Of a stretch of 64,000 nt of DNA, positions 5,275-59,733 are shown piece by piece. Made by a program: the position numbers and the translations under genes. The notes beneath the pieces were generated by a model. The model did no database searches. It saw only the letters and a list, made by a program, of their open reading frames with translations, and was not told the DNA's origin. The first letter of the stretch is position 1. Each line of letters starts with the position of its first letter. Origin of the DNA: a virus; the IMG/VR virus record IMGVR_UViG_3300018418_000008, positions 21,220 through 85,219 of that record; one strand, 5' to 3'.

Positions 5275-5622
5275 CTAACTCCCTAAAATTGTAACGCTAG
5301 GTTTAATAAACACTTTACCATCCATAATTCTTTCTATATTTGTATTTCCTGATTCGTACATAACAACGTCATATACATATCTCACACTGGTATCGAGTGT
5401 ACTAGTCTGTGTCGAGTTCAAACTCAATTGAATTACACCACCGTTGGCGTCTACAACAGCAGTGCTGAATGAAATAGTGGTAGGATCAGAATAAGTTTTC
5501 TTCATTCCTCCACTAAACAATTTATTATTAATGTCTTTAGCTGCGCCATTTGTGTCAACAATGAATACTTTAATAGTAGCGTCAGCACCTTCGACTATGG
5601 TTAAATCTTCGGTACGGGCCAT
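5275..5622 (-). CDS. small baseplate/fibre-associated protein (115 aa)
   Basis: All-beta protein beginning with ARTEDLTIVEGADATIKVFI and a repeated strand-turn pattern to VFIKPSVTI. The layout resembles N-terminal domains of upper-baseplate proteins that clasp fibres (BppU-like), but that match is only by eye. A late promoter lies 25 nt upstream. Followed closely by the 291-aa fibre gene, so it may connect or chaperone it. Confidence 0.6.
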   Translation of the reverse strand: MARTEDLTIVEGADATIKVFIVDTNGAAKDINNKLFSGGMKKTYSDPTTISFSTAVVDANGGVIQLSLNSTQTSTLDTSVRYVYDVVMYESGNTNIERIMDGKVFIKPSVTILGS

Positions 5623-5656: not shown

Positions 5657-6256
5657 TTATTCGAACCGTACTATATTAAAAGCGATCGAATAACGAGGTT
5701 TTTCTATTTGATTTATTAATACGCCATGTGTCATATGATTAGGAAAAAATAAACATGTGTTTTTTTCGGTGATTGGTTCAAAATGATCGGTTGTTATTAA
5801 TGGATTGCATAAATCATCGCCTAATGAGCCATTTTGTAATGCCCATGAATAATCACCTTTTCTAATAAACATAATTTCACCTTGTTCTTGCTCTACATTT
5901 CTTGGATAATAACAACCAGATAAAACACATGTTGGGCCAGGATGAGAATGGTGCATATTGTAACAATGTTGGAAATTAATGTTCATCCATAAATTATCAA
6001 CTTTTACATTTACATCAGATTCATAAGCATCTCTACATATTTGATTGGCAGCTTCGTTAATACGACCAATTAAATTATCTATATGTTTATTTTCATTTAT
6101 ATTATATTCTCGTTGCCAGCCTCCAATATTTGATAAATCCCTCCCCTCATCTTGACTACAAATATAATCCATAAATTTAACAATTTCTTCAGAATTGACA
6201 TCATCAAAAACCATTTTAAAAATACTATCGACAAATATATCAATTCTTTCAATCAT
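5657..6256 (-). CDS. 2OG-Fe(II) oxygenase-like protein (199 aa)
   Basis: Double-stranded beta-helix oxygenase of the TIGR02466-like type often seen in marine phages. The core reads NMHHSHPGPTCVLSGCYYPR (residues ~100-119), then GEIMF, and the distal CLFFPNHMTHGVL (H177) followed by PRYSIAFNI (R188). The first iron ligands appear as H-S-H (103/105) rather than H-x-D, as in that family. Probably hydroxylates a protein side chain or small molecule with 2-oxoglutarate, O2 and Fe(II). Last gene of a five-gene cassette (5657-9153) between fibre genes; overlaps the upstream gene by 4 nt. Substrate unknown. Confidence 0.75.
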   Translation of the reverse strand: MIERIDIFVDSIFKMVFDDVNSEEIVKFMDYICSQDEGRDLSNIGGWQREYNINENKHIDNLIGRINEAANQICRDAYESDVNVKVDNLWMNINFQHCYNMHHSHPGPTCVLSGCYYPRNVEQEQGEIMFIRKGDYSWALQNGSLGDDLCNPLITTDHFEPITEKNTCLFFPNHMTHGVLINQIEKPRYSIAFNIVRFE

Positions 6257-7122
6257 GGTTTTTCCTGTATGCCGTGTGTAGCATATGGACCTTTTAGAAT
6301 TAAAGGTATATTAAAAAACAAAGCTTCGCCAAGTGGTTCAATGCTGTAGTATTGATGAGCAGGAATATAAACAATATCACCTTTGTTTACTGTAATTTCT
6401 TGTTCTATCTCTAATTTATCAAAAAAAACTTGATAATCTCTAACATCCCAATCTTCTGGAAAACTATGATCGCATAATGCAGAACATCTATTTTTATAAA
6501 CAATAATTTTAAATGATTCATCTACACCTAGAAAAAAATTACTCCACGTTTTAGCACATGGTAAATGTTTATCGGCATCTTTTGATGGATGATAATAAGC
6601 TTGAATACAACCACTCGTATGAACAGGTCGTACAGGCCAGACTCCATAATATTCAAGATTACAATAAAATTGGTTTAATAAAAATTGTAACAGTTCATAG
6701 ACATGATTGTTAAAAATTTCAAATTTATTAATCATCATTGTTTGATTATTTTTTTCAATATATTCTAATGACAATTTACAATAATTAATAAAATCTTGAT
6801 ATATTTCTGATTTTTGATTTTGATCATCAAATTCTACACTATCAGGATTTTTTGTAGTAAGCGGAGTAAATTGAGGATTATTTTTATAATCCTCTAGAAT
6901 TCTATTTGTAGTAGATTGAATTTCATCTGTTTGCATCTTAGATAGTGCAGTTACAAAATAATAAGTAAATTGGTCTTCTTTAAATAATATTAATTTTTTA
7001 AAATCACCAATTGTACCGAGATGACAACACTCTTCTTCTCTTATAAAATTATTTAAAACAATAAGCTTATCATTAAAATAAATTTCTTCAAAATCTTTTT
7101 CGAATTGTTCTTTTGCAAACAT
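6253..7122 (-). CDS. cupin-like protein of the oxygenase cassette (289 aa)
   Basis: No family firmly recognised. The C-terminal third reads KGDIVYIPAHQYYSIEPLG followed by ALFFNIPL, the GD-x4-P-x-H signature of cupin/JmjC barrels, while SGCIQAYYHPSKDAD could supply an earlier metal site. This may be a diverged 2OG oxygenase or a metal-free cupin. The helical N-terminal half is rich in Lys, Glu, Asn and Phe. I chose the ATG at 7122, which shares a base with the upstream stop (TAATG), over a codon 14 residues earlier. Confidence 0.55.
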   Translation of the reverse strand: MFAKEQFEKDFEEIYFNDKLIVLNNFIREEECCHLGTIGDFKKLILFKEDQFTYYFVTALSKMQTDEIQSTTNRILEDYKNNPQFTPLTTKNPDSVEFDDQNQKSEIYQDFINYCKLSLEYIEKNNQTMMINKFEIFNNHVYELLQFLLNQFYCNLEYYGVWPVRPVHTSGCIQAYYHPSKDADKHLPCAKTWSNFFLGVDESFKIIVYKNRCSALCDHSFPEDWDVRDYQVFFDKLEIEQEITVNKGDIVYIPAHQYYSIEPLGEALFFNIPLILKGPYATHGIQEKP

Positions 7123-7838
7123 TATTGTTTCTCTTCTAATGTATAATTGCTTTTTCGCATGCAATATTTTCTATACCATTGAGCTACACTCGCGAATCCT
7201 CGAGATCTAGCTTCTCGTTTTTCTACCATTGGACCATAAAAACCATTGTATGTTTCTTTCTTAAATGGTATAATATGCACTAAAGGTTCACCGGCTTTGA
7301 TTGTAAAACTGCCTTTTTCTTTTGGCTTAAAAATAATATTGAGTGTAGTAAATCTCTCTGAATAATCAACTACGCCAGGGTAAATGTATAACTTCTCTAC
7401 TATATTCGAATGATAATGAGGAGGCATAATTAATAATGAAATATTTTTTGCCTTCACCATCCAAGGGGTTGTTAAATGTAATGGGTTAGCTGCGCAGTTT
7501 TGATCAGGTATACCTGTAGCTATTTCTTCACTCATAGGACCACATACTTGATTACCTAATGGTTTATGTGATTCATTTCCAGATTTATCTCTAGACATTA
7601 CATATGCCATCGTATTTGGACCATCATTAAATACCTGAATCTCATCCCACGCTGTCAAAATCCATCCTAGATTTTTATAATCTACAATACCGGGGCAATC
7701 ATTAAATTTTTCTTTCCCAAATTTTTCTTTTTGCACGGCTTTATGAGGACAGGCATTAAAGGTTCGCGCTTTTTGAATTGGATGCAATTTATAATATGTG
7801 CCATCCATATCATAAAATTCTACATTATTTTCAATCAT
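7122..7838 (-). CDS. DUF6065-like protein, paralogue 1 (238 aa)
   Basis: Has the blocks CPGIVDYKNLGWILTAWDEI near residues 48-67, PLHLTTPW and PGVVDYSERFTTLNIIF, then IKAGEPLVHIIPFKK near residues 180-195. The final block and the GVVD motif match the next gene (AGMPLVHVVPFKR, GVVDTD), so the two are paralogues. The family is found next to oxygenases in phage genomes and looks like a small beta barrel; function unknown. Overlaps both neighbours by 1-4 nt. Confidence 0.6.
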   Translation of the reverse strand: MIENNVEFYDMDGTYYKLHPIQKARTFNACPHKAVQKEKFGKEKFNDCPGIVDYKNLGWILTAWDEIQVFNDGPNTMAYVMSRDKSGNESHKPLGNQVCGPMSEEIATGIPDQNCAANPLHLTTPWMVKAKNISLLIMPPHYHSNIVEKLYIYPGVVDYSERFTTLNIIFKPKEKGSFTIKAGEPLVHIIPFKKETYNGFYGPMVEKREARSRGFASVAQWYRKYCMRKSNYTLEEKQ

Positions 7839-8539
7839 CTTATTTCACGCAATTCTTTTGTATAAGTTCCTAATCGTGTTCGATTTGCAACATTAAGTTT
7901 ATCTCGCTGTTTGCATTCTTTTTCATTCATAGGTCTAATAATGTGTTTATGCTTTTGTCTTTTAAATGGCACGACATGTACTAATGGCATACCTGCGAGT
8001 AGTGTATCATCAAAATTTGGTTGATGCCAAATTACTGGAAAATTAACTGGACTATGATATTGATCAGTATCAACAACACCACTTAAAACTGTATATGGTA
8101 AATTCCAGACACTAGGTAGTGGTTGAAATAAACACGACCATCCAGGCGGAGTTTTAATTCCATAATAATTTATAAACTTTAAAGGATCTTGTTTTCCAGT
8201 TTTCCAACCAGTTGATTTAAGTTGACTAAACGAATGTCTTTCAACAAATGGTAAAGTACTATCTTGCATATGTTCTGCAGATAATACACTACAATCGTCA
8301 TTAGTAATAACATGAACATCGCCTTGAAGAGGCACAATATAACCAAGCGTCATAGCATCCAACATAGGCAAACATTTTTTTGCCGTGGCACCCGGCATAG
8401 TATTCGTTCTTTGCTCAGTTTTTAAAGGAATCTTTCTAAACCATTCCGGAATGTGTTTATTTGCAGGTACTGGCTCAGGTAAAACTTCATGCAATTCTGG
8501 TTCAATAATAAATTCAATTTTATCGTTATTAAAAAACAT
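7835..8539 (-). CDS. DUF6065-like protein, paralogue 2 (234 aa)
   Basis: Typical family layout: N-terminal PEPVPANKHIPEWFRKIP, KKCLPMLDAMTLGYIVPL, then INYYGIKTPPGWSCLFQPLP, VLSGVVDTDQYHSPVNFPVI and AGMPLVHVVPFKRQ. These PP-G-S and GVVDTD motifs are more canonical than in its paralogue. Function unknown; it always appears in this window with 2OG enzymes, so it may belong to the same modification pathway. ATG overlaps the upstream gene's stop. Confidence 0.65.
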   Translation of the reverse strand: MFFNNDKIEFIIEPELHEVLPEPVPANKHIPEWFRKIPLKTEQRTNTMPGATAKKCLPMLDAMTLGYIVPLQGDVHVITNDDCSVLSAEHMQDSTLPFVERHSFSQLKSTGWKTGKQDPLKFINYYGIKTPPGWSCLFQPLPSVWNLPYTVLSGVVDTDQYHSPVNFPVIWHQPNFDDTLLAGMPLVHVVPFKRQKHKHIIRPMNEKECKQRDKLNVANRTRLGTYTKELREIR

Positions 8540-9153
8540 TATATTTGACTATCTCCCCAAACCCAAAACACTAGCGTTTCTCTATTGCCAGATATAAGTG
8601 GAGTAACTTGGTGTAACATATGACTGTCAAAAAACACGACAGCACCTTTCTTCAATTCAATTGGATATAAATGGCCATTTCCATCTAAATCTATAGTTAA
8701 TTCACCACCTTCATAGTCTTCAGGATCAGATAGCATAACAATACCAGAAATTCTTCTATCTTTTGGTCTATAGCCTTGTAATAGAACGTCTGTATGTGGA
8801 TCATATTTAGTGCCTGGCCCGTCGTAGATAACATATTGAATATCTTCCATACCTATAATTGGATAAAGAAAATGATCATAGTTAGCTCTGCCAACTAAAT
8901 GACCAATTTTTTCATAGACTATATTTGTATTTTGTTCTCTATGAAGGCTTGCTACTTTGCAATCCCGAACTTTATCTGTAGAATCAGGTACTTTTTTACC
9001 TTCAGATCGTTCAGAATATGTTTCACCAGATTCGAAATTAATAATTTTTTTAAAAAATCTAATTTTATTAATTTCATCTTCATCAAATACATTTTCATAA
9101 ACACCAAATCGCTGGAGATTATGACCGGGAGTCAACTTCTCAATTTCATGCAT
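8539..9153 (-). CDS. 2OG-Fe(II) oxygenase, PKHD/prolyl hydroxylase type (204 aa)
   Basis: Complete active-site set: H120-T-D122 in YDPHTDVLL, distal H181 in FFDSHMLHQV, and 2OG-binding R191 in GNRETLVFW. The middle LSDPEDYEGGEL is the usual EGGEL strand of prolyl-4-hydroxylase-like enzymes. Likely hydroxylates a protein or peptide substrate. First gene of the cassette, just 15 nt after a 782-aa fibre whose 39 repeats each carry a Y-P or F-P pair, which makes that fibre a candidate substrate (inference). A late promoter lies 32 nt upstream, inside the fibre gene's end. Confidence 0.85.
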   Translation of the reverse strand: MHEIEKLTPGHNLQRFGVYENVFDEDEINKIRFFKKIINFESGETYSERSEGKKVPDSTDKVRDCKVASLHREQNTNIVYEKIGHLVGRANYDHFLYPIIGMEDIQYVIYDGPGTKYDPHTDVLLQGYRPKDRRISGIVMLSDPEDYEGGELTIDLDGNGHLYPIELKKGAVVFFDSHMLHQVTPLISGNRETLVFWVWGDSQI

Positions 9154-9168
9154 AATATAATTACCTTG

Positions 9169-11517
9169 TTAACCACTGTATTTTATATTTATATATCCTC
9201 TATTAGTAGCATTATTATTACCAGCTGGGGAATTACCAACACTTACCGATAAGTCTGTACCATCTATACCATCGACTTCATTTGGATTAGTAATTTGTAC
9301 ATATGTTGCTGTTGCTGCAGCCGTAACATAATTTGTAACATTAGGTGCAGCACCCGGCGCAGTTACACTAACAGGAGTACCATCAGGAGTTGTCCATTGA
9401 ACTGTTGTGTCATCACCAGCAAGCCCGAGTGTAGTTCTTGCTGGATAATTAGTTACACGAGAAGGATAATTAGTAACATTAGTTACCGAATATGCCGGCT
9501 GATTGCGTGATGGATAATTTGTTACAACTTGGTATGCTGGATTATTTCTAGCAGGATAGTTTGTTACAACAGAATATGCTGGATTATTACGCAATGGATA
9601 ATATGTTGCAACCGCATATGCTGGATTATTACGCAATGGATAATTTGTTACAACTGAATAAGCCGGCTGATTACGTGATGGATAGTTTGTTACAACAGAA
9701 TAAGCCGGATTGTTTCTAACAGGATAGTTTGTTACAACCGAATAAGCTGGATTATTACGCAATGGATAATTTGTTACAACAGAATATGCTGCTTGATTTC
9801 TAGCAGGATAATCTGTTTGATTTTGATATGCCGGATTGTTTCTAACAGGATAGTTTGTTACAACTGAATATGCTGGATTATTACGCAACGGATAGTTTGT
9901 TACAACCGAATATGCTGGATTATTTCTAACAGGATAATCAGTTTGATTTTGGTATGCTGGATTATTTCTAGCAGGATAATTTGTTACAACAGAATATGCT
10001 GCTTGATTTCTAGCAGGATAATCTGTTTGATTTTGGTATGCTGGATTATTTCTAGCAGGATAATCAGTTTGATTTTGGTATGCTGGATTATTTCTAGCAG
10101 GATAATCAGTTTGATTTTGGTATGCCGGATTGTTTCTAGCAGGATAGTTTGTTATAACCGAATATGCTGCTTTGTTTCTAGCAGGATAGGTTGTTACAAC
10201 TGAATATGCTGCTTGATTTCTAGCAGGATAATCTGTTTGATTTTGGTATGCTGGATTATTTCTAGCAGGATAGTTTGTTGTTTGTGAATAAGCAGCCTTT
10301 CCCGAATATACAACTCGCGACGGGTAATACGCTGTAGCAGTAAATGTTTGATAGGTCGGAAAAAATATCTGCCCGAAAGTATAACCTGAAGAATAAGCTG
10401 CTTGAGTAAAAGAAGTGGTCCTTGCTGGGAAGTTAGCAACATTAGAATAAGCACCCTTTTGCTGTCTGCTAGGGTAATTAGTGATAACACTATAGGCACC
10501 TTTCACCTGTCTACTAGGATAATCTGTTTGATCTTGATAGGCAGCTTTCACCTGTCTACTAGGATAATCGGTTTGATTTTGATAGGCAGCCTTCTGCTGT
10601 CTACTAGGATAATTAGTGATAACACTATAGGCAGATTTTTGCAGTCTGCCAGGATAATTAGTGATAACACTATAGGCAGCCTTCGCCTGTCTGCTAGGGT
10701 AATTAGTGATAACACTATAGGCAGCTTTCACCTGTCTACTAGGATAATCCGTTTGATTTTGGTAAGCAGCTTTTTGCTGTCTGCTAGGGTAATTAGTGAT
10801 AACACTATAGGCGGCCTTTTGTTGTCTACTAGGATAATCGGTTTGATTTTGGTAAGCGGCCTTCTGCTGTCTACTAGGGTAATCCGTTTGATTTTGGTAA
10901 GCAGCTTTTTGTTCTCTACTAGGATAATTAGTGATAACACTATAGGCAGCTTTCACCTGTCTGCTAGGATAATCGGTTTGATTTTGGTAAGCAGCTTTTT
11001 GTTCTCTACTAGGGTAATTAGTGATAACACTATAGGCGGCCTTCTGCTGTCTACTAGGATAATTAGTTTGATTTTGGTAAGCAGATTTTTGCAACCGAGA
11101 AGGATAATTGGTTTGATTCTGATAGGCAGCTTTTTGCAACCGAGAAGGATAATTAGTTTGATTTTGGTAAGCAGATTTTTGCAACCGAGAAGGAAAATTG
11201 GTTTGAATCTGATAAGCAGCTTTCTGTAATCTAGAAGGATAGTTTGTTTGATTCTGATAGGCAGCCTTCTGCAATCGTGATGGATAATTAGTAATTGCAT
11301 TAGTTTGATAAACTGCTTTAGTTGTACTATATGCTGCTTTTAATGTTGGAGCACTAGCACCACCACCTCTAGCCTCAATCTCAATGATTTGACGACCATA
11401 AGGAATAGAGATAGGAGTAGCATCAGTTGTACCTGACGTTGCTTCTTTATATCTAGTTTCAGAAAAAGTGGCAGCCCACGTTCTATCTAGAAAACTTTTT
11501 CCGCCTCCTATTGGCAT
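9169..11517 (-). CDS. 782-aa fibre built of 39 short YP repeats
   Basis: Residues 1-83 are a head region (GGGKSFLDRTWAATF... QIIEIEARGGG). Then come 18 tandem 15-residue units of the form KAAY-(QNQ/SVI)-T-(N/D)-YPSR-xx plus a half unit (84-366), a 40-residue Tyr-rich spacer (367-406), 19 units of 14 residues (NPAY..TDYPARN type) and a last longer unit (407-694), and an 88-residue beta-rich tail with a collagen-free end YINIKYSG. Two unit flavours, QNQTDYP and SVxTNYP, are mixed irregularly. Each unit offers two Tyr, one Pro and one Arg, suggesting a beta-solenoid or sticky fibre. No homologue recognised. Late tail fibre or adhesin by position. Confidence 0.8.
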   Translation of the reverse strand: MPIGGGKSFLDRTWAATFSETRYKEATSGTTDATPISIPYGRQIIEIEARGGGASAPTLKAAYSTTKAVYQTNAITNYPSRLQKAAYQNQTNYPSRLQKAAYQIQTNFPSRLQKSAYQNQTNYPSRLQKAAYQNQTNYPSRLQKSAYQNQTNYPSRQQKAAYSVITNYPSREQKAAYQNQTDYPSRQVKAAYSVITNYPSREQKAAYQNQTDYPSRQQKAAYQNQTDYPSRQQKAAYSVITNYPSRQQKAAYQNQTDYPSRQVKAAYSVITNYPSRQAKAAYSVITNYPGRLQKSAYSVITNYPSRQQKAAYQNQTDYPSRQVKAAYQDQTDYPSRQVKGAYSVITNYPSRQQKGAYSNVANFPARTTSFTQAAYSSGYTFGQIFFPTYQTFTATAYYPSRVVYSGKAAYSQTTNYPARNNPAYQNQTDYPARNQAAYSVVTTYPARNKAAYSVITNYPARNNPAYQNQTDYPARNNPAYQNQTDYPARNNPAYQNQTDYPARNQAAYSVVTNYPARNNPAYQNQTDYPVRNNPAYSVVTNYPLRNNPAYSVVTNYPVRNNPAYQNQTDYPARNQAAYSVVTNYPLRNNPAYSVVTNYPVRNNPAYSVVTNYPSRNQPAYSVVTNYPLRNNPAYAVATYYPLRNNPAYSVVTNYPARNNPAYQVVTNYPSRNQPAYSVTNVTNYPSRVTNYPARTTLGLAGDDTTVQWTTPDGTPVSVTAPGAAPNVTNYVTAAATATYVQITNPNEVDGIDGTDLSVSVGNSPAGNNNATNRGYINIKYSG
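9186..9193 (-). promoter_or_regulatory. T4-type late promoter (TATAAATA)
   Basis: Perfect octamer inside the last codons of the repeat fibre and 32 nt before the oxygenase ATG, so the oxygenase cassette can be transcribed late on its own. Confidence 0.55.
9436..10299 (-). repeat. tandem 42-bp coding repeats (14-aa units)
   Basis: In-frame array of 19 units of 14 codons plus one 22-codon end unit in the 782-aa fibre. Units alternate between QNQTDYPARN and SVVTNYPLRN flavours and use nearly identical codons within a flavour, which points to recent recombinational expansion. Confidence 0.9.
10420..11268 (-). repeat. tandem 45-bp coding repeats (15-aa units)
   Basis: In-frame array of 18 units of 15 codons plus a 13-codon half unit. 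The first units near the N-terminus are of the QNQTNYPSRLQ type, later ones mix QNQTDYP and SVITNYP. One residue longer per unit than the second array. Confidence 0.9.
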
Positions 11518-11532
11518 ATTACATCCTCTTTA

Positions 11533-12711
11533 TTACTGTGCCCAACCAGCATTTCGAATTGATAATGAACCATATATTTTACCAGCAATTACTACAAAAT
11601 TATATATGTCAATTCCAGATGACGATGGAGGTTCTACTGATTCTGCCCAATATATAGCATCTCCTTCTAGTTCCCCTGGCCACGTAGCTTCTCTTGCGGT
11701 GCCATTGTTATCTATGACTAAAGTAAACGCTGCAGCTTCACCAGCTGCCGTTGGGAAATTTGTAAAATCAACCGAATAGTTAGCATTTGGCGTAAATGTA
11801 TATACCGAACCAGAATTTACGTTTATGTTTACTGAATTTCCTGTTGATGCAGCTACTACAGTTTCCTTAAAATAATCTTCTACTTGAATACGGCGCGCCA
11901 TGATGTCAGTTGTTACATCTAAATCACCACTAATATATGTTTGTGTAGCATTAACTTTTAATCTTTCAGATCCATTTGATACCAATCTTATAGATGCAGT
12001 AGCATCAAATTCTAATTTTGTTGCAACATCGCCGCTATGAGTAATACTACTAAGAATCTCTACATTATCAACACCATCAATTGTGTTATCAGATGCCGAG
12101 AGGTTAGAAAAATGAAGACCGTCGTTATCAAAATATGCCCGTCTTCGATCACCAATAATTATCGATATTTCATCAGCTGATGTGCTTGACCAAGTACCAC
12201 CAAAATTAGGATCTGGTACATCATCGTTCGTCAAAGCACCAAAAATAATACCAGTGGCAGTATCATCTTGTGATAGTATCATTGATGTGTTTATAGAATT
12301 AACACCAATGCCGCCATCAGCTTTTTCTGTATTTGTAGCAAATGTACTAGTAGGACTAACACCTCTTACTTGTATACCATCACCAGCATTAATTGATAGC
12401 ATAGTAGTATTAGCACTTGCTATATTTGCATTGCCAGCTGTAATATCAATTTGATTGTTCGAGAATCCGATCGTGGTATCAGTGTCGCCGACGTGAGTAA
12501 TATTGGTGCCAATATATAAGCCACCTGTAATTTGTGCAGTGCCAACTACATCAAGCGGATATGATGGTGATGAATCGTTTATGCCGACCCGATTGTTTAC
12601 GGTATCAACGAATAAGACATTGGTGTCAACTGCTAAATTGGCACCAACCTCCATTGAGCCAGTAACAACTAACCCGTCTAATGTGTCAAATTTTTGTGAG
12701 GTAGCAGTCAT
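11533..12711 (-). CDS. tail fibre protein (392 aa)
   Basis: N-terminal LDGLVVTGSMEVGANLAVDT and NNRVGINDSSPSYPLDVVGT are standard repeats of marine phage tail fibres (trimeric beta-helix shaft). A middle region carries DRRRAYFDNDGLHF. The C-terminal ~110 residues form the same knob as in the 213-aa protein at 632-1273 (WPGE...YWAESVEPPSS...YGSLSIRN). Probably a side tail fibre with a receptor-binding tip. Lies between a 137-aa structural gene and the repeat fibre, only 15 nt from the latter. Confidence 0.75.
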   Translation of the reverse strand: MTATSQKFDTLDGLVVTGSMEVGANLAVDTNVLFVDTVNNRVGINDSSPSYPLDVVGTAQITGGLYIGTNITHVGDTDTTIGFSNNQIDITAGNANIASANTTMLSINAGDGIQVRGVSPTSTFATNTEKADGGIGVNSINTSMILSQDDTATGIIFGALTNDDVPDPNFGGTWSSTSADEISIIIGDRRRAYFDNDGLHFSNLSASDNTIDGVDNVEILSSITHSGDVATKLEFDATASIRLVSNGSERLKVNATQTYISGDLDVTTDIMARRIQVEDYFKETVVAASTGNSVNINVNSGSVYTFTPNANYSVDFTNFPTAAGEAAAFTLVIDNNGTAREATWPGELEGDAIYWAESVEPPSSSGIDIYNFVVIAGKIYGSLSIRNAGWAQ

Positions 12712-21366: not shown

Positions 21367-24300
21367 TTAATGTAGTCTAGTAGTTCTAATATGTCTGGTT
21401 AGTTTATTATGTACAACGACGTTGTCGGCTGTGTAAGTATTATCACCATCAACGTGGAAGTTAAACACTTCAATACTATCATCAAACTTATGAATATTTA
21501 TTACAACTTCAGAAGATGTCATACCAGCATCAGTTAACGTTATAATTGTATCACCAATTTCTAGTTGTGATATTTCCATATCAGGATGCATTTGTGCTGC
21601 TTTAACTGCATCAACTGCTCGCCATCCTTCTGAGGTTAAAATAGGATGATATGCTGTCAATGTTAGTTTATCATTGATAGTAGCCATCGGTCTCAATTCA
21701 ACTGGAATTGGGAACAATTCTACAACATCATTAAACTCGCCATGTTGACCTACAACTTCATCGCCTACGACAATATCTTGAATATTCTTATAAGAGAAAT
21801 CACTCATTAATATTTTCGTATTTGCTACAAAGCATCCATGACCACCATGTGTTGTTTTTGGTGCTGGATCTGGTGTAGCCGGCGTCACCGGATTAGTTGC
21901 AATCGGAGGAATGCTAGGCGGCACCGAAGGTGATCTATACGGCGGCCTTCTAGTAGGTACCTTATCCGGTATTGGATTAGGTGCTGGCTGTCTTGGCGGC
22001 TGCTTAATCACTTTAGGCGGCACAGGCAAAGGATCCGGCATAGGCGGCGGAACTTTTGGTGGTGCCTTCACCGGAGGTACTACGGGCGGAGGACTTCCCC
22101 GAATGATTGGTGGCCTAACAACTACCGGAGGTACAGCTGGTTTCACCGGTGGCGCTACTGCAATTGAACAATCCGGATTTGTTGGTGTTGGATTATCACA
22201 GCCATCGTCTTGTTTTGGTGCTGGTCGTACAGGACTCGTACAAACAGGCGGTGGTGGTTTTGGTGCCACATATTTACATACTGGAACATTATTTGGATCT
22301 GATGTCGACAATTTAATGGCACACTTACCATTTGTTCCTCTTTTACCAGTAAAAACAAATGTATTTAATGTTTTATCAATAGTAGCCGTACAAAATGTTT
22401 TTGCTACTGTGCCAGATGGAGGACACGCAGGTGGAGCAGGAATAACAGGTTCAGGCACTGGTACCGGATTAGGAACAGGTATTACATAACCACATTTAGT
22501 TGAATTAGGAGCCCTATTACCAACTTGAGTACCATAATTGCCATCAGAAACATATGTTACTAATGTTGTACCAATACATTTAGTATAGAGGAATGTGCCT
22601 TTAGCTGATGAAGGTGGTCGTGTATTTCTTTCGGTCGCACCTGTGTCAAAGATTGGATCAGCAACTGTAATTGTAGGATAACAGATTTCATAGTTAAATA
22701 TTTCAGCACCCTTAATAGCACGTACTGTGATCCATTTTCCTTTTGTATAATCATAAGGAATGGAAATTTTTCCAGCACCTTTAAAACAATTGTAATTAAT
22801 AGTGCCCGATGGTGAACCGGTCAAGGTTATAGTTCCGGCTGCAGACAATGCTACAAACCACGGATTATCGGCATATGAAATAGCTGAATTTCTACTATTT
22901 TTAACAGGATATAATTTTTTATAAAGAGCAATTGCATCAGGCGGTGTTACGGCGACTGGTGTTTGTGATGCACTTGACCAAACTATATTTGCATTTTCCA
23001 ATCCACGCGTAGGCTTAGTAGATGATTGAATAATTTCAAATGCAACCTTGCCCCTCGGAATATAAAAAGTAAGATCGATATTTCTAGTTGAATTATCAGT
23101 AAAATCGGGTGCTAAGAAACTAGCTTCTTCCCAAACATTTTGTAGTTTAGACCAACTACCCGTTGAATCTCCTATATTCTTTGTATTTCTATTCGATACA
23201 AATTGACATGCATCAGTAATGGCAGGTGGCTGTGGCTCAGGAATATATGGTCCATAAGTAGCAAATTTTTGTGATAATAATCTTTTGCGTGAAAATGGAA
23301 AAGTAACTTTATTTCCTGTTCTATATGGTCCTGACTGTGCATCGAGCTTATAATCAATTGTAGATGTACCACGAGCTGGTTGCAATACATATTCATAAAT
23401 TGATGCATTATATTCAGGATTTTGAATATTTGCCAGATCATAGTTTTCAAAATTATCAACAAAGAAACCAAACTTAAATCTTTCAAGTGTAGAATCTACC
23501 GAACTTGGGATTTTTCTATTCTTAACTGAGTCTTCAAGTTCTGATATATTTTGATTATATTCTAATGCTTCTAGACGTCGCTCTAATTTTGCGATGTCTG
23601 ACATTGTATAACCTTCATTTTGATCGTCAATTCTGGTAGCTTTGATAGAATATCGATCACCACGATATCCTGAAGTATCGCGTTCGCTGATGACATTTGT
23701 GTATAGAATTGTAGTTATGTCTGTCGACAATACTTGTGGTAAACTAGGATAGGGAGCAACATCTACCTTATATAAGACAATCGCGTTTGGATCTGATTTA
23801 TCTAATTTGTTGGTATCTTGAGCAATATGAAAATCACCATCAATATCGATCATGATCTCATCTGTTCTTCCCTTATATGATCTTATATCGTATATAATAT
23901 CGCCCTGCGGCCGTGGGAATTTTAGACCACTGAGACCAGTAAATGCAATTGTTCCACTCGGATCGGTTGATGCTGTTGCATCTGTGGTAGCATCAGCAGC
24001 AGTTTGATCTACAAATGGTCTAAAGTCAAATGCTTCTCGTAAATCATACGTAATGCCTTGTACTGTAATAACAGGAATTTCAAGATTATGAATATTCGTG
24101 CCAGCTGTGGTCAATGCATCTAAATCTTTTTCATCATCAATAGGATATGAGTCAACAGTTTTTAAGCCGCCGCGGGCAGCTGGTTCCAAATAATCTACTT
24201 CGACCAAAATCGTTGCTGCTAATGACACAGATGATGTATCATTTTTTCGAAGTGATCCTAAACCCCAATAATTAGCAGTCTGACCCATATCAACAAAGAA

Positions 24301-27126
24301 TTCATTTGTAATATCTGTTGCCGCTGTTGTCGTACCATTATATACGGCGCGCAATCTAAAGATACCCGGTATACCTAATGATCTATTTGCTTCTTTTGTA
24401 AAACCAGCTGCAGTCGTTAATTTGACATATCTTTTTCTTCGTACAGTAAACGCTATTGGTGAAGTATTTTCACTCTTTAAATTATATGTTGCAGTTAGTG
24501 CATTAGTAATATCTGAACTAAATGTAATACCGAGATCTACAATCAACGAAGAATAAGGTGCCGTAGATGATGCAGTAAATCTATTAATAGGAACATACGC
24601 GGGGAATACGCGCTTTAGTGTGCCAGCTGTAGGATAAGATCCATTTTTAATTACTCTAATTGCATCTTGTCCTACTACTTCAATGATGAGCGAAGTATTT
24701 ACACCATCTGTAATCCAATCTCCTGCTTGAACATTCGAAGAGAAATTAGGTGTACCTGCTGTTGCAGTTAGAAGAGTATAAGTACCTGAAGTATCAGTAG
24801 TAAACGTCAAACCAGATGCAAAAGTCGAACCTGCAACTAAATCTTGATTAGGTACAAGTATAAGTTCTTTTCTTTCAGCATCTGTAAGATTTCCAATATA
24901 TGGAAATATCGTAGAAGCTGCAGCACTGATAGAAATTGTACCAGCAGAACCTACAGTCAAATCATCTGTACTAGTACGATATGTGTATGTAACATTATTA
25001 GCTGCATCACCATCAAGAGTTGTGGCTCGACCAGTATCTACGATTAGACTTTGATTTGTTGATCCATAGATATCTGCTTTTTGTCGATATGATGCTGGTA
25101 TAAACTCGCCGTTAGCATCACCAGTTCCTGTGCTCTTTAGTTCACGTAAGGTATATTCACTACCAGATGTCAAAACAACATCTGCAGCACCAAATAATGA
25201 TCCAGCAGATGAATATACACTTCGTACATCGCGCTGGAAGTTTTTACCGGATTGCATTGTAATATCAAATAAGTGAAGTCTATATGTTGCCGATGGTGTG
25301 CCCGGTGTTCCATTTTCTAATACAATACTTCTAATTTTAGCAGAACCAACCTGTGTACCCATACCGGCAGTTCCACTGGCAGGACCATTTGCATCATCTA
25401 ACTTCGATGCAGCAGTACTATATAATTCAATATCATCTGCATTTTTAAAATCAAATACACCAGTTAAATTATTAACAATGATGTAGTTAGCATATTCCAT
25501 ATCTCGACCAAGGGCGGTTTCTGATAAAACCTCCAATCCCTTAGGTACTTCTTTAATGAAGTTAGCAATTGTTTTTACTCGATAACCATTAATATATGCA
25601 TGACCGGGATCAATTACATATGTAAAATGTGTATCTGTATTTGCAATATTTTCTGATGATTTAGTGGCCAATCGGAAGGGATCGAGAGTATAGTTACCCG
25701 ATTCTTCATAGGTACGTCGGGCAATCATATCACCTAACTTACCGTATTGTGTCAGTTCATTAATAGCAAAAGGTCGACCATTATTAAATTTAATAATTGG
25801 AAAATATGCAGCATCAGATTCTTCTTCAGCTGATGTTTTAGCAACCAATCTTGGTATTAATTTAAGTCTGTTAGCACCCGGTGCACCTTCGTTTGAAAAA
25901 CCTTGTGCATTATCATACAACGTAGAATCTGTAAAAACGTTTACAATCGATTCAGTTGTATCGAAACCAACCGACAAATCTGATGGAGTATTAGAATATT
26001 TGCTGACAATTGCAAATTGAGTATCAACTTTTAGAAAATGACCTTTCTGATAAATTTTACCTTCAGTTACATTAACGCCAAAACCATAACCAATCGGATC
26101 AGTAAACTGTGCAGATGATGCAACTTTAACTCTAGTTACATAATCCTGTGCAGTAAGAGTTAATTGGCCAACCTGAAGTGTAGTTGCAGTTGTAGAATAA
26201 AGAGTTACATATGGTAATATATCATAATCTTTACCACCAGTAGAAATTTCTGCTGATGCAATAGAACCAGTACGAGTTGTAGTAATTTTGCCTGTTGCAC
26301 CAGTTCCTCGAATCTTAACAACTTTTACTTCTTGACCGGTTGTTTGACCAATAAGAGTTGTACCTTCTTCCAAATTTTCCCAGAATGTAGCATCTGGCGT
26401 TGGCGCCAAATCAGAATCAACTGGTTTAATACGAAGTAATACAGTATTTTCTTCTTCTAATACTTCTTGTGCAGCGTATGTTTCAACACGAACCGTCGGT
26501 GTGCCACTGTCATCCAATAATACTTCAGATGATCCTAATGATATACCTTCAGATGTACCAGATGTTACGTTTGATACTTCAATTGCAGACAAAATAACTA
26601 CAGTATCTGAGTTAGCAAAGCCTGATGACGGGTCGGTAATAATAATATCGTGTAGTCTTTTATCCGCAGAATAAATTTTTAATACTTCGTCTTCTACAAA
26701 ACCATCAATATCGAAATTAGTACCGGAATCAGTATATTCAACATATAGGGTGTTAAGATCAGGATCAGATCCTTCAAAACCTGCAATTGTATGAGTAATT
26801 CGTGCGTTTACTTTGTTTGTTTGCCCCTCAACAAAGTAACCAGTATATCGAGCTACATCAACCGCTGCACCAGATTCTGCATTATCGAGAATCTTAACGT
26901 ATGGCATTGAGTATTTAAATGAGAATTGGCATCCTGATAAAATCGTTCCGGATCTCAATATATGATCACCAAATTCTTCAATCTGGTGTTGCAGCATAGC
27001 CTGCAATTGATTCATCTCACGTACTTGGACTGCCGTTGCTGGCTTAAATAAGATACGATAGTATTCGCTATTTGTATCGTAATCGTCGAAGTAAGGAGAA
27101 ACCGATAAATTTGTAGTAAGGGGCAT
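21367..27126 (-). CDS. DUF4815 baseplate/fibre protein with Pro-rich linker and Hint domain (1919 aa)
   Basis: The N-terminus (SVSPYFDDYDTNSEYYRILF, then VREMNQLQAMLQHQIEEFGD) is the DUF4815 signature of marine myovirus tail proteins; this domain and beta repeats fill residues 1-~1330. Small Cys-containing repeats follow (~1500-1640), then a proline-rich linker (~1640-1760). Residues 1765-1907 are a complete Hint domain: C1765 starts CFVANTKIL, block B reads LTAYHPILT, and the end is VVVHN. Only 12 residues (KLTRHIRTTRLH) follow. Since residue +1 is Lys and not Cys/Ser/Thr, cleavage rather than splicing is expected. Starts just 3 nt after the gp8-like gene. Confidence 0.85.
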   Translation of the reverse strand: MPLTTNLSVSPYFDDYDTNSEYYRILFKPATAVQVREMNQLQAMLQHQIEEFGDHILRSGTILSGCQFSFKYSMPYVKILDNAESGAAVDVARYTGYFVEGQTNKVNARITHTIAGFEGSDPDLNTLYVEYTDSGTNFDIDGFVEDEVLKIYSADKRLHDIIITDPSSGFANSDTVVILSAIEVSNVTSGTSEGISLGSSEVLLDDSGTPTVRVETYAAQEVLEEENTVLLRIKPVDSDLAPTPDATFWENLEEGTTLIGQTTGQEVKVVKIRGTGATGKITTTRTGSIASAEISTGGKDYDILPYVTLYSTTATTLQVGQLTLTAQDYVTRVKVASSAQFTDPIGYGFGVNVTEGKIYQKGHFLKVDTQFAIVSKYSNTPSDLSVGFDTTESIVNVFTDSTLYDNAQGFSNEGAPGANRLKLIPRLVAKTSAEEESDAAYFPIIKFNNGRPFAINELTQYGKLGDMIARRTYEESGNYTLDPFRLATKSSENIANTDTHFTYVIDPGHAYINGYRVKTIANFIKEVPKGLEVLSETALGRDMEYANYIIVNNLTGVFDFKNADDIELYSTAASKLDDANGPASGTAGMGTQVGSAKIRSIVLENGTPGTPSATYRLHLFDITMQSGKNFQRDVRSVYSSAGSLFGAADVVLTSGSEYTLRELKSTGTGDANGEFIPASYRQKADIYGSTNQSLIVDTGRATTLDGDAANNVTYTYRTSTDDLTVGSAGTISISAAASTIFPYIGNLTDAERKELILVPNQDLVAGSTFASGLTFTTDTSGTYTLLTATAGTPNFSSNVQAGDWITDGVNTSLIIEVVGQDAIRVIKNGSYPTAGTLKRVFPAYVPINRFTASSTAPYSSLIVDLGITFSSDITNALTATYNLKSENTSPIAFTVRRKRYVKLTTAAGFTKEANRSLGIPGIFRLRAVYNGTTTAATDITNEFFVDMGQTANYWGLGSLRKNDTSSVSLAATILVEVDYLEPAARGGLKTVDSYPIDDEKDLDALTTAGTNIHNLEIPVITVQGITYDLREAFDFRPFVDQTAADATTDATASTDPSGTIAFTGLSGLKFPRPQGDIIYDIRSYKGRTDEIMIDIDGDFHIAQDTNKLDKSDPNAIVLYKVDVAPYPSLPQVLSTDITTILYTNVISERDTSGYRGDRYSIKATRIDDQNEGYTMSDIAKLERRLEALEYNQNISELEDSVKNRKIPSSVDSTLERFKFGFFVDNFENYDLANIQNPEYNASIYEYVLQPARGTSTIDYKLDAQSGPYRTGNKVTFPFSRKRLLSQKFATYGPYIPEPQPPAITDACQFVSNRNTKNIGDSTGSWSKLQNVWEEASFLAPDFTDNSTRNIDLTFYIPRGKVAFEIIQSSTKPTRGLENANIVWSSASQTPVAVTPPDAIALYKKLYPVKNSRNSAISYADNPWFVALSAAGTITLTGSPSGTINYNCFKGAGKISIPYDYTKGKWITVRAIKGAEIFNYEICYPTITVADPIFDTGATERNTRPPSSAKGTFLYTKCIGTTLVTYVSDGNYGTQVGNRAPNSTKCGYVIPVPNPVPVPEPVIPAPPACPPSGTVAKTFCTATIDKTLNTFVFTGKRGTNGKCAIKLSTSDPNNVPVCKYVAPKPPPPVCTSPVRPAPKQDDGCDNPTPTNPDCSIAVAPPVKPAVPPVVVRPPIIRGSPPPVVPPVKAPPKVPPPMPDPLPVPPKVIKQPPRQPAPNPIPDKVPTRRPPYRSPSVPPSIPPIATNPVTPATPDPAPKTTHGGHGCFVANTKILMSDFSYKNIQDIVVGDEVVGQHGEFNDVVELFPIPVELRPMATINDKLTLTAYHPILTSEGWRAVDAVKAAQMHPDMEISQLEIGDTIITLTDAGMTSSEVVINIHKFDDSIEVFNFHVDGDNTYTADNVVVHNKLTRHIRTTRLH

Positions 27127-52468: not shown

Positions 52469-53107
52469 CTAAGTCCACGGCGGGCCCATAAACCAGCCCA
52501 CCAGAGAGCGCCGGACGCCTCTTTTGACAGGCATTACCCTATGCCATAGATGGCTTGGAAATACAACCATTGTCCCTTTCTGAGTATACTCAGGGACTAG
52601 AGACATATTGGTAATGCGATGCCAGATCTCATTTGGACCGGAGCGCTGATGATCTTCAATAAGCAATTCTCCACCTTCATATTCAGTAGGATCACTGAGT
52701 AGAAGTGTAAAACTCAGCTTTCGAATCAAACCTGCATTCTCATCATCTTCAGGCATTGGATCTGCAAAAGAATCCGGATGCCAATCATAATGACCACCGG
52801 GCCCATATTGAGTGTATTGATAAGGTTGTACGGTGTTAATTTTCCAATCACCCCATCCAGCAGCTTCAGCAGCTTGACCCATTACAGAATTTAACGAAGT
52901 ATAAATTCCATCAAAATTTAAATCATATTTCTCAGCTTGTTCAGGAGAAAACCATGTTACTGTCGATAATCGAGTAATTCCTGCTGTAGCATCTTTGCGG
53001 CCGACTTTAGCTTGCATATCATCAAGCATTTCACCTATTCGAACAATTTCGTCGCACACATCATTTGCAACTGCTGCAGGTGATACCGCGTAAGCGTTCT
53101 TATGCAT
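52469..53107 (-). CDS. 2OG-Fe(II) oxygenase, PKHD/PiuC-like (212 aa)
   Basis: Full active-site set: H110-P-D112 in HYDWHPDSF, H189 in FPSHLWHRV, R199/R200 in RRSLVGWF. LLLSDPTEYEGGELLI and HRVMPV match the PKHD-type hydroxylase pattern. Third oxygenase-type protein of this window and located in the early region rather than among fibres, next to a RecB-like nuclease. Substrate unknown; protein or nucleobase hydroxylation are both possible. Overlaps the nuclease stop by one base. Confidence 0.85.
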   Translation of the reverse strand: MHKNAYAVSPAAVANDVCDEIVRIGEMLDDMQAKVGRKDATAGITRLSTVTWFSPEQAEKYDLNFDGIYTSLNSVMGQAAEAAGWGDWKINTVQPYQYTQYGPGGHYDWHPDSFADPMPEDDENAGLIRKLSFTLLLSDPTEYEGGELLIEDHQRSGPNEIWHRITNMSLVPEYTQKGTMVVFPSHLWHRVMPVKRGVRRSLVGWFMGPPWT

Positions 53108-58593: not shown

Positions 58594-59017
58594 CACAAAT
58601 TATACCTGCTTCATTAAATAGATTCAATGTCTTTCCAAAACTATTTATCCATCTTGCATCAGTATATTTTGTATCATGTATAACTACACGTTTAATACCT
58701 GTTTGTATGATTCCTTTAGCGCACTCATGACACACAGGTAAACCATATACGTACATTGTGGCGTCCCTAAGCGACATACCATTGCGACCTGCATTATAGA
58801 TACAGTTCATCTCCGCGTGCACCACGAGCTCGTATTTTTGGTCGCGATCATTATAACGATCTTCATCGTCAATCACACCAACTGGAAAGCCATTATATCC
58901 AGTAGCCAACACTTGTCTATCTCTTATTGCTACGGCACCAATTTTTCGTGATGGATCTTTTGACCAAGTTGAAATGTGTTTAGCTAATTCTAAAAATCTT
59001 TTATCCCATAGGTACAT
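58547..59017 (-). CDS. dCMP deaminase (156 aa)
   Basis: Zinc-dependent cytidine/deoxycytidylate deaminase: H67-A-E69 (VVHAEMNCIYNAG) and P94-V-C96-H-E-C99 (LPVCHECAKGI) hold Zn and activate water. DPSRKIGAVAI and GYNGFPVG also fit the family. Converts dCMP to dUMP, feeding dTMP synthesis with the reductase for phage DNA. Overlaps the 2OG gene by 17 nt. Confidence 0.92.
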   Translation of the reverse strand: MYLWDKRFLELAKHISTWSKDPSRKIGAVAIRDRQVLATGYNGFPVGVIDDEDRYNDRDQKYELVVHAEMNCIYNAGRNGMSLRDATMYVYGLPVCHECAKGIIQTGIKRVVIHDTKYTDARWINSFGKTLNLFNEAGIICDAVELPESVDITDYR

Positions 59018-59582
59018 AATTTTGTGCTACCGTAAATCGCCACATGCTAGCATGATACGCAATGCACGCAGCTGTATGTTGAATATTTCCATCGAATATA
59101 ATCATTCGCCCAGGTTTATATTCTAACATACCTACGAGATCTCGTACATAGGGATCATAAAATTTGAACTCACCACCCCAACCATGTTCCCATGTTGGAT
59201 TGGCCATATACAAAACAGTTTTTGTATTTTTAGACATATCTACATCATCAGCATGACTTCTATATACAGAACCAGGCACTCCTGCATTTAGAACAGTTCT
59301 AACGATTCGATGATTATCAAGATGTTGAGGCCAAATAGACATCGCATAATGAGCAATTATTTGACACATTCTAGATTCTGTACAAGTGGAATATAAAAAT
59401 ACTTCTTTATCCCAATCTGAATCTTTCCAACCTAGTTTAAAGTCAGAATTTTGAATATCAGAAAAAATTGTATTTTTATCAGGTATAGCTACTCTATTAT
59501 CGACTTTATCTAATAATAAATTTGATACATCAATATTTGCTGGATCTATTTTCCAATCTTCTGGATAACCATTATTCTTCAT
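59001..59582 (-). CDS. 2OG-Fe(II) oxygenase, prolyl-4-hydroxylase-like (193 aa)
   Basis: Active site H110-A-D112 (VYRSHADDVD), distal H169 (FDGNIQHTA), R182 (MWRFTVAQN) and WGGEFKFYDP in between. Fourth oxygenase-type protein of the window. Start placed at ATG 59582, inside the stop of the zinc-ribbon gene; an ATG 21 nt earlier is possible. Lies between dCMP deaminase and methyltransferase genes, so protein or nucleotide substrates are open. Confidence 0.8.
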   Translation of the reverse strand: MKNNGYPEDWKIDPANIDVSNLLLDKVDNRVAIPDKNTIFSDIQNSDFKLGWKDSDWDKEVFLYSTCTESRMCQIIAHYAMSIWPQHLDNHRIVRTVLNAGVPGSVYRSHADDVDMSKNTKTVLYMANPTWEHGWGGEFKFYDPYVRDLVGMLEYKPGRMIIFDGNIQHTAACIAYHASMWRFTVAQNYVPMG

Positions 59583-59733
59583 AATCCGGTATATAGTCCT
59601 CATTATCTTCAATATTCGCACTACAAATAGGACAAAAAGCAATTTCTATTTCTTCATGCTCATAATTAGTTTGACGTATAATTACGTCGCATTTCACTTC
59701 GCACCCGCGGCAATTAATAGTAGTTTTAAACAC
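59572..59733 (-). CDS. 53-aa zinc-ribbon-like protein (GTG start)
   Basis: Short gene read from the gap: C8-x2-C11-x3-C15 and C34-P-I-C37 form a zinc-ribbon pattern (NCRGCEVKC... FCPICSANI) with an acidic end. GTG at 59731-59733 is preceded by GAGG at 9 nt and overlaps the previous gene's stop by 8 nt. Possible nucleic-acid or protein adaptor. No family assigned. Confidence 0.6.
   Translation of the reverse strand: MFKTTINCRGCEVKCDVIIRQTNYEHEEIEIAFCPICSANIEDNEDYIPDYEE

Follow-up and report, generated by a model that had tools for sequence, protein, structure and literature searches.

The window analysed here spans 64,000 nucleotides of an IMG/VR virus contig 85,219 nucleotides long, with genes of tail and baseplate type, and the system in question is a series of six minus-strand open reading frames (ORFs) within it. 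The series starts with a repeat fibre or adhesin of 782 amino acids (9169-11517) and runs on through a 2-oxoglutarate (2OG)-Fe(II) dioxygenase of the prolyl 4-hydroxylase (P4H) type (204 amino acids; 8539-9153), two proteins related to DUF6065 that we call D1 (7835-8539) and D2 (7122-7838), a Cupin_8/JmjC-like protein, CUP (6253-7164), and a putative second 2OG-Fe(II) oxygenase, OX5 (5657-6256). A preliminary description of this DNA had taken all of these genes to be overlapping and late, which stands in part: P4H and D1 share one base, D1 and D2 four, and CUP and OX5 four, and the D2/CUP overlap varies with the CUP start (TTG at 7164 as listed, or an in-frame ATG at 7122), whereas the fibre gene does not overlap the P4H gene but is separated from it by 15 bases, and lateness is a supposition from gene order.

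The P4H-type enzyme scores 57.4 bits against PF13640 (cut-off 27) and matches phrog_61 (E = 1.8e-27), and its metal and 2OG site is complete (H120, D122, H181 and R191), which confirms the earlier call of a prolyl-hydroxylase-like protein with a full HxD...H...R motif. Among solved structures, a profile of its family matches PKHD/PiuC, EGLN1 and several prolyl 4-hydroxylases, including 5c5t (E = 4.7e-8), which we take to be the chlorovirus enzyme. Relatives occur in 278 named phage records, mostly of cyanophages, all of them below 60% identity and with three records covering at least 80%; a P4H label on HSTV-2 gp36 (E = 8e-4) was dropped, this being a 113-residue protein without HxD...H.

The fibre encoded just before this enzyme has a head with a PYGR...GG motif, 19 regular units of 15 residues, a spacer, 18 regular units of 14 residues and a C-terminal domain, with irregular units in addition. 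It contains 40 Tyr-Pro and three Phe-Pro pairs, against a maximum of five Tyr-Pro or six Phe-Pro in each of the other ORFs longer than 180 amino acids in the window's ORF table; the Tyr-Pro array first described is thus real, with 37 regular units rather than 39. Both unit types have an invariant Arg and an invariant array Tyr, and Thr is present in all of the 37 units but one, about as invariant as Pro; with the array Tyr, not Pro, as the anchor, residue +7 is Pro in 38 of 41. Between units, the ratio of non-synonymous to synonymous differences (pN/pS) is 0.26 and 0.36 in the two unit types, at pS values of 0.73 and 0.50, respectively, which indicates an old array kept at the protein level and not a recent product of slippage. 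Weak matches of the fibre to Pfam Methyltransf_29 and to PHROG were set aside (0 stretches), and a match to Ruminococcus phiRM10, antisense to an annotated gene, was dropped as a low-complexity chance match.

Scans of IMG/VR with D1 and D2, followed by clustering of the D1 proteins at 90% identity, yielded 77 viral clusters, each represented by one locus (L001-L006, from the window's own contig and named phages, the duplicates L039/L040 and the bacterial loci L041-L069 are outside this count). The exact order P4H-D1-D2 was found in 43 of the 77; the remainder have P4H before D1 only (three), D2 after it only (two), P4H after D1 (10) or neither (19). The active-site residues H, D, H and R are kept in the P4H of 42 of these 43 triads, the exception being L137, which reads HEWA. 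Upstream of the triad lies an adhesin ORF of one family in 42 of 43 clusters, the 43rd (L075) being cut by the contig end. Members of this family share a head, with a motif like TFNAPG..PYGK...GRG, or a tail like LGV.FPGG...VP.GGY, and have a variable body with a high content of Tyr, Asn, Pro and Gly. They were assigned with hidden Markov models (HMMs), which replaced a regular-expression rule that caught only 28 of the 42; 25 of the 42 fibres served as seeds, and 15 of the other 17 match at E = 2e-11 or better. Composition gave the same picture in the 42 triads with an upstream gene: Tyr, Asn, Pro and Gly together make up a median of 43% of the ORF directly upstream of P4H, compared with 24% across the other unlabelled ORFs of at least 200 amino acids from the same loci (n = 228; P = 2e-11), and Pro 10.5% against 3.7% (P = 3e-14), P values that overstate independence because the clusters are related. 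Six of the 42 ORFs taken as directly upstream are not of this composition; the adhesin is found one or two positions farther upstream in L019, L139, L142, L178 and L204, and in L186 an adhesin ORF of 459 amino acids ends right before P4H.

The link between fibre and enzymes, at first a matter of adjacency in a single genome, was also recovered from the fibre side. Triad fibres served to build the query of a scan that found 34 loci (all kept, not de-duplicated, many of the contigs being already among the loci of the other scans), three of which end after the fibre; 28 of the 31 others have a P4H-like gene nearby and 25 have D1, and L324, outside those 28, has a nearby PF13640 oxygenase missed by the P4H HMM. 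A structural model of a short fibre has a mean predicted local distance difference test score (pLDDT) of 61.1, with confident ends and a body below 50; its PDB search returned six matches only, at E = 5.7 or worse and with no useful fold match, and the three fibres scanned had no Pfam match. A second arrangement of the same enzyme-fibre link is seen in L099:2-2017, L100:6700-8004 and L101:5342-6784, where the fibres are Gly/Asn-rich (GNAGNPG) and the neighbouring D1 comes before P4H, immediately so in L099 and L100 and at a greater distance in L101.

Many relatives carry a gene of GT60 (PF11397), the family to which the GlcNAc-transferase acting on Skp1 hydroxyproline belongs, as the ORF after D2; in some it precedes P4H or the fibre, and all six tested score 83.9-105.8 bits against a cut-off of 21. 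GT60 is present in 21 of the 43 representative triad loci (22 when all members of each cluster are considered, that of L203 being mixed), and the DSH motif is kept in 21 of 21. In a GT60-led scan, for which the best 80 of 117 loci were taken, again not de-duplicated and with many contigs already among the D1/D2 loci, 75 of the 80 hold D1, D2 or P4H, 64 of them as the whole set with the adhesin and 11 as part of it; of the five without cassette genes, two begin with the GT60 gene itself (L227 and, judged by match position, L215), and the other three, L282, L283 and L286, have it in another context. GT60 accompanies 15 of 21 repetitive fibres and five of 21 non-repetitive ones, at a P value of 0.005 that is too small because the clusters are related and the repetitiveness cut-off of 0.3 is arbitrary, with L173 and L077 just below it. 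A profile search of solved structures with GT60 gave no match, and the GT60 protein of L031 had none in 50,697 named phage records. One of the genes between adhesin and P4H in L139 and L142 is a sulfotransferase (PF03567; scanned in L142 and L071, the L071 protein reading as in L139). Sulfotransferase-family genes within fibre cassettes, at L142:5939-6631, L315:6698-7399 and L071:1602-2309, suggest that further decoration may take place.

The pair D1 and D2 had been described as two DUF6065-like paralogues, and they do align with each other and both match phrog_7084 (E = 5e-46 and 1.1e-19, respectively), but D1 reaches only 21.0 bits against DUF6065 (PF19541), under the Pfam cut-off of 26.6, and D2 had no match in the Pfam scans; we describe them only as relatives of that family. 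The AlphaFold2 model of D1 (pLDDT 82.9) aligns with the dUTPase/dCTP deaminase fold, dUTPases appearing among the 50 matches listed by VIA with Z scores of 9.3-10.8 and root-mean-square deviations of 2.4-4.4 Å over 105-126 residues, and in Foldseek with modest values (E = 0.002-0.032, not below 0.001; probability 0.85-1.00; query TM 0.25-0.41). The first 11 matches of the model in BFVD are phage proteins (seven uncharacterized, four without a name), followed by many dUTPases. A profile search of solved structures with D1 found no dUTPase, and what we take to be the usual dUTPase motif set is, by eye, not evident in D1 except for a GVVDTD stretch. Likeness to dUTPases without a sequence-level match indicates resemblance of fold, not of function, and the dUTPase-like fold of D1 is a prediction from the model.

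Relatives of D1 extend beyond the triad loci. A bacterial one (L044) is 38% identical to D1 and scores 33.2 bits against DUF6065, over the cut-off; in named phage records, D1 relatives were found in haloarchaeal viruses only (49 records), and in the two that were examined the gene is solitary near tail genes, with no triad. In three of the five bacterial loci scanned (L044, L049 and L054), the DUF6065-like gene directly follows a gene for a subtilisin-family (S8) peptidase, not a fibre. At L037:3209-7609, a tryptophan halogenase (PF04820, 355 bits) is surrounded by three D1-like genes, which suggests that the role of DUF6065 relatives may extend to other modifying enzymes.

CUP and OX5 occupy the slot that GT60 holds in many relatives. 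CUP scores 20.7 bits against Cupin_8, under the cut-off of 27.4, and has CAK and Tyr at the ligand positions where, by eye, its relative in L070 (JmjC_2, 53.5 bits) has HVD and the distal His; the HxD...H metal site of the window's CUP appears to have been lost, and the protein is probably not a working oxygenase. OX5 scores 35.9 bits against PF13759 (cut-off 27) and matches phrog_81 (E = 3.1e-28). The five-gene set first described downstream of the fibre is present as such, on one strand, with the reservation that its cupin-like member seems to lack this site. Among the loci of three IMG/VR scans with D1 and D2, it is limited to the window phage, L009/L010, L070 and, in partial form, L136; what is conserved is the P4H-D1-D2 core, to which GT60 is often added, and the window's five genes are a local variant.

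Direct observations are the order of the genes, their families and catalytic motifs, the co-divergence of the enzymes and their repeated association with one adhesin family. An oxygenase-D1-D2 set, with or without GT60, that keeps appearing next to adhesins of one family is most simply explained as modifying them. We propose, at a probability of roughly 0.6, that the enzymes of the cassette hydroxylate the adhesin encoded with them, with Pro as the most likely site, and that those of relatives also add sugar to it; the fibre as substrate, Pro as the residue, the order of steps, the roles of D1 and D2 and the presence of the product in the virion are what we infer from the genes. In the adhesin, the product of the gene just ahead of P4H, the oxygenase would hydroxylate side chains of the extended Tyr/Asn/Pro/Gly-rich body, prolines being the likeliest targets; in the window phage these would be the Pro of Tyr-Pro in each unit of 14-15 residues. 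D1 and D2, which travel with P4H, may be its partners, binding or presenting a cofactor or the chain of the fibre. Where relatives have GT60, as many do, this enzyme would then add a sugar to the hydroxylated residue, much as Gnt1 does on the hydroxyproline of protist Skp1, and in the window phage the second oxygenase-like and the cupin-like protein would stand in place of GT60. Stiffening and decoration of the host-binding tip would be a likely use. We regard Pro hydroxylation as the leading chemistry because Toxoplasma Gnt1, a GT60 enzyme, needs a hydroxylated Pro of Skp1, made by PhyA (PMC6939170). Support for a strict Pro reading comes from one case: the P4H of L009 has lost its distal His, and the fibre of the same locus has AYGAD in six places where other units have AYP.

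A fuller scheme, which we consider possible but would not ourselves favour, is that these phages run a hydroxyproline-glycan pathway of their own, in which P4H, two repurposed carriers of dUTPase fold and a Gnt1-type GT60, joined in some by sulfotransferases, would make an extensin- or mucin-like glycosylated adhesin out of a low-complexity Tyr/Asn/Pro fibre, the window phage being a variant whose second oxygenase replaces the sugar step. If the cassette does act as we propose, phages would encode a route that first hydroxylates and then glycosylates a protein of host recognition, a counterpart to the Skp1 pathway of protists.

Several observations weigh against the proposal that the cassette hydroxylates its adhesin on Pro. 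Some concern the reach of the enzyme-fibre link: 34 of the 77 D1 clusters lie outside the exact triad, and two loci of the fibre-led scan, L303 and L307, have the fibre with no cassette genes within 5 kb, the gene after it being a tail-assembly chaperone (Phage_tail_APC, scanned in L303). The window's own fibre (scored as its L134 copy) matches the adhesin-family HMMs weakly in the head (E = 0.0025) and not in the tail, its position before P4H fitting all the same, and the L137 fibre likewise has a head match of about 2e-3 and none in the tail. The distances of the enzymes correlate (r = 0.79-0.89 among P4H, D1 and D2, n = 43; 0.72-0.76 with GT60, n = 21; permutation P = 0.0005), which in itself favours the proposal, the set being inherited together, but would follow from plain vertical descent as well; the relatedness of clusters noted above tells in the same direction, as do the modest Foldseek values of D1. 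Others concern chemistry. The substrates of 2OG oxygenases include many residues as well as small molecules and are not fixed by sequence. No GT60 over the cut-off was found in the contig of the window phage or in a 163.7-kb contig with identical D1 and the same cassette, in searches whose controls gave no signal. GT60 also includes a polypeptide GlcNAc-transferase of Trypanosoma cruzi (PMC6939170), so its presence is no proof of hydroxyproline.

The preliminary description had seen in the locus a fibre with its own modification set. This view gains from the recurring link to an adhesin family, and GT60 would favour Pro over Asn or Tyr as the target, but Tyr-Pro repeats as the general substrate do not hold up: by score, 21 of the 42 adhesins are not repetitive, and their bodies vary (YP, YN, NP or PG). 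The same description had named cassettes in relatives without repeat fibres as evidence that would speak against it; half of the cassettes are of this kind, yet their non-repetitive adhesins carry the same head or tail as the repetitive ones. In L142, a locus that keeps P4H, D1, D2 and GT60, the array is Asn-rich with 23 Pro in 517 residues.

The Asn-rich array of L142 is better accommodated if the cassette modifies the fibre on Asn or Tyr, and the first alternative interpretation is of this kind, namely that the enzyme acts on Asn, Asp or Tyr in the manner of FIH, or that Thr or Ser is the sugar acceptor, with Pro having a structural part only. It would also accord with the richness of the 28 tabulated bodies in Tyr and Asn (at least 5.6% and 4.4%, compared with a minimum of 4.2% for Pro) and with the near-equal invariance of Tyr, Arg, Thr and Pro in the window's units. 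Thr is used by the T. cruzi enzyme of GT60. We nevertheless consider this interpretation rather unlikely because the P4H profile is closest to PKHD/PiuC, P4H and EGLN structures, because Pro is strongly enriched in most fibres and because Toxoplasma Gnt1, a GT60 enzyme, requires a hydroxylated Pro (PMC6939170). Another substrate altogether is also conceivable, the P4H-type enzyme acting on a collagen-like protein or on other virion proteins and its place beside the fibre reflecting the clustering of late genes. A collagen-repeat protein of 384 amino acids (PF01391, E = 4.7e-26) is indeed encoded at 6081-7235 of the same contig (L002), left of the window, which counts against the fibre as substrate, and the contig has two further 2OG oxygenases (52469-53107 and 59001-59642 of the window). 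The collagen-like gene is about 20 kb away, however; among the 50 Gly-X-Y triplets counted in its product, Pro is Y in two only and X in 15, and the enzyme set adjoins adhesins of one family in 42 of 43 clusters; we regard the collagen-like protein as a candidate substrate weaker than the fibre, and this interpretation as improbable.

Similarly improbable, in our view, is an auxiliary role of the oxygenases in the metabolism of iron or 2OG or in AlkB-like DNA repair, with a permissive, hypervariable fibre region as the place where such genes settle. A review of cyanophages proposes repair as a function of the P4H-domain genes of Syn9 (PMC2984593), and 2OG oxygenases are counted among high-copy auxiliary metabolic genes, being those of highest copy number in the phage of PMC10436341; a hotspot, however, would be expected to hold mixed cargo, and here gene order, two paralogues and GT60 recur and co-diverge. 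We give least credence to the idea that the enzymes are moonlighting chaperones, their 2OG and dUTPase-like folds serving as mere scaffolds for adhesin assembly. The apparent loss of metal ligands in the window's CUP (by eye) and in the P4H of L009 and L137 would suit such a role, but the conservation of active-site residues in 42 of 43 P4H proteins and of DSH in 21 of 21 GT60 proteins speaks against it.

Phage-encoded modification of virion proteins is a known kind of thing, and the enzymes here belong to known families in a combination that we did not find described. The preliminary claim of an undescribed system agrees with our search: no description of a phage P4H-GT60 or fibre-hydroxylation cassette was found among the open-licence matches listed, as judged by titles and the starts of abstracts. 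No open-licence paper in PubMed Central was found to mention DUF6065, for which the fibre cassette is a functional lead, or to mention PF11397 together with phage. The nearest likeness is the Skp1 pathway of Dictyostelium and Toxoplasma (PhyA and Gnt1), which also pairs a P4H-type 2OG oxygenase with GT60 (PMC6939170); here the genes form a phage cluster adjoining an adhesin, with two DUF6065-like partners and a putative substrate other than Skp1, and the search for GT60 in the window phage gave no match. The P4H of Chlorovirus PBCV-1 is likewise encoded by a virus and turns Pro-containing peptides into hydroxyproline; it differs in belonging to a eukaryotic virus, its role in replication is stated as unknown, and the available part of that account mentions no fibre cassette, DUF6065 or GT60 (PMC7019647). 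The viral use of prolyl 4-hydroxylase has been said to remain 'cryptic' (PMC9301287), and a cassette tied to one adhesin family provides a concrete candidate substrate for that question. The 2OG-Fe(II) oxygenases of T4-like cyanophages (phrog_61, phrog_81) belong to the same superfamily as the window's P4H, at less than 60% identity, and 2OG oxygenases are common extra genes in T4-like marine phages. The gp38 polyglycine-sandwich adhesins of T-even phages such as S16 resemble the present family in having a low-complexity body on a folded base and a variable host-binding tip (PMC6851490); the bodies here are mostly rich in Tyr, Asn and Pro instead, and the window fibre, with 3% Gly, does not show the glycine-rich motif.

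Genes beside the cassette are also of tail-fibre type. Downstream on the same strand lies an LtfC-like or L-shaped tail fibre assembly protein (5275-5622; phrog_1084, E = 3.1e-20; phrog_3304, E = 2.5e-16), and upstream a tail-fibre-like ORF of 392 amino acids (11533-12711, minus strand; phrog_5906, E = 2.5e-8; phrog_18345, tail fiber protein, E = 7.1e-7). An LtfC-like neighbour also occurs in 17 of the 43 triad loci, and L200 and L303 have tail-fibre assembly neighbours; the fibre product would be a component of the virion. The two further 2OG oxygenases of the window, distant from the cassette and on the minus strand, both belong to PF13640, and the 163.7-kb relative with identical D1 has four PF13640 matches, three of them over the cut-off. 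Elsewhere on the contig, L002:16861-19986 encodes a protein of 1041 amino acids with degenerate GERQITQTADNL-type repeats and without a Pfam match, and positions 21367-27126 of the window (minus strand) encode one of 1919 amino acids with DUF4815 and a Hint/Vint domain at its end.

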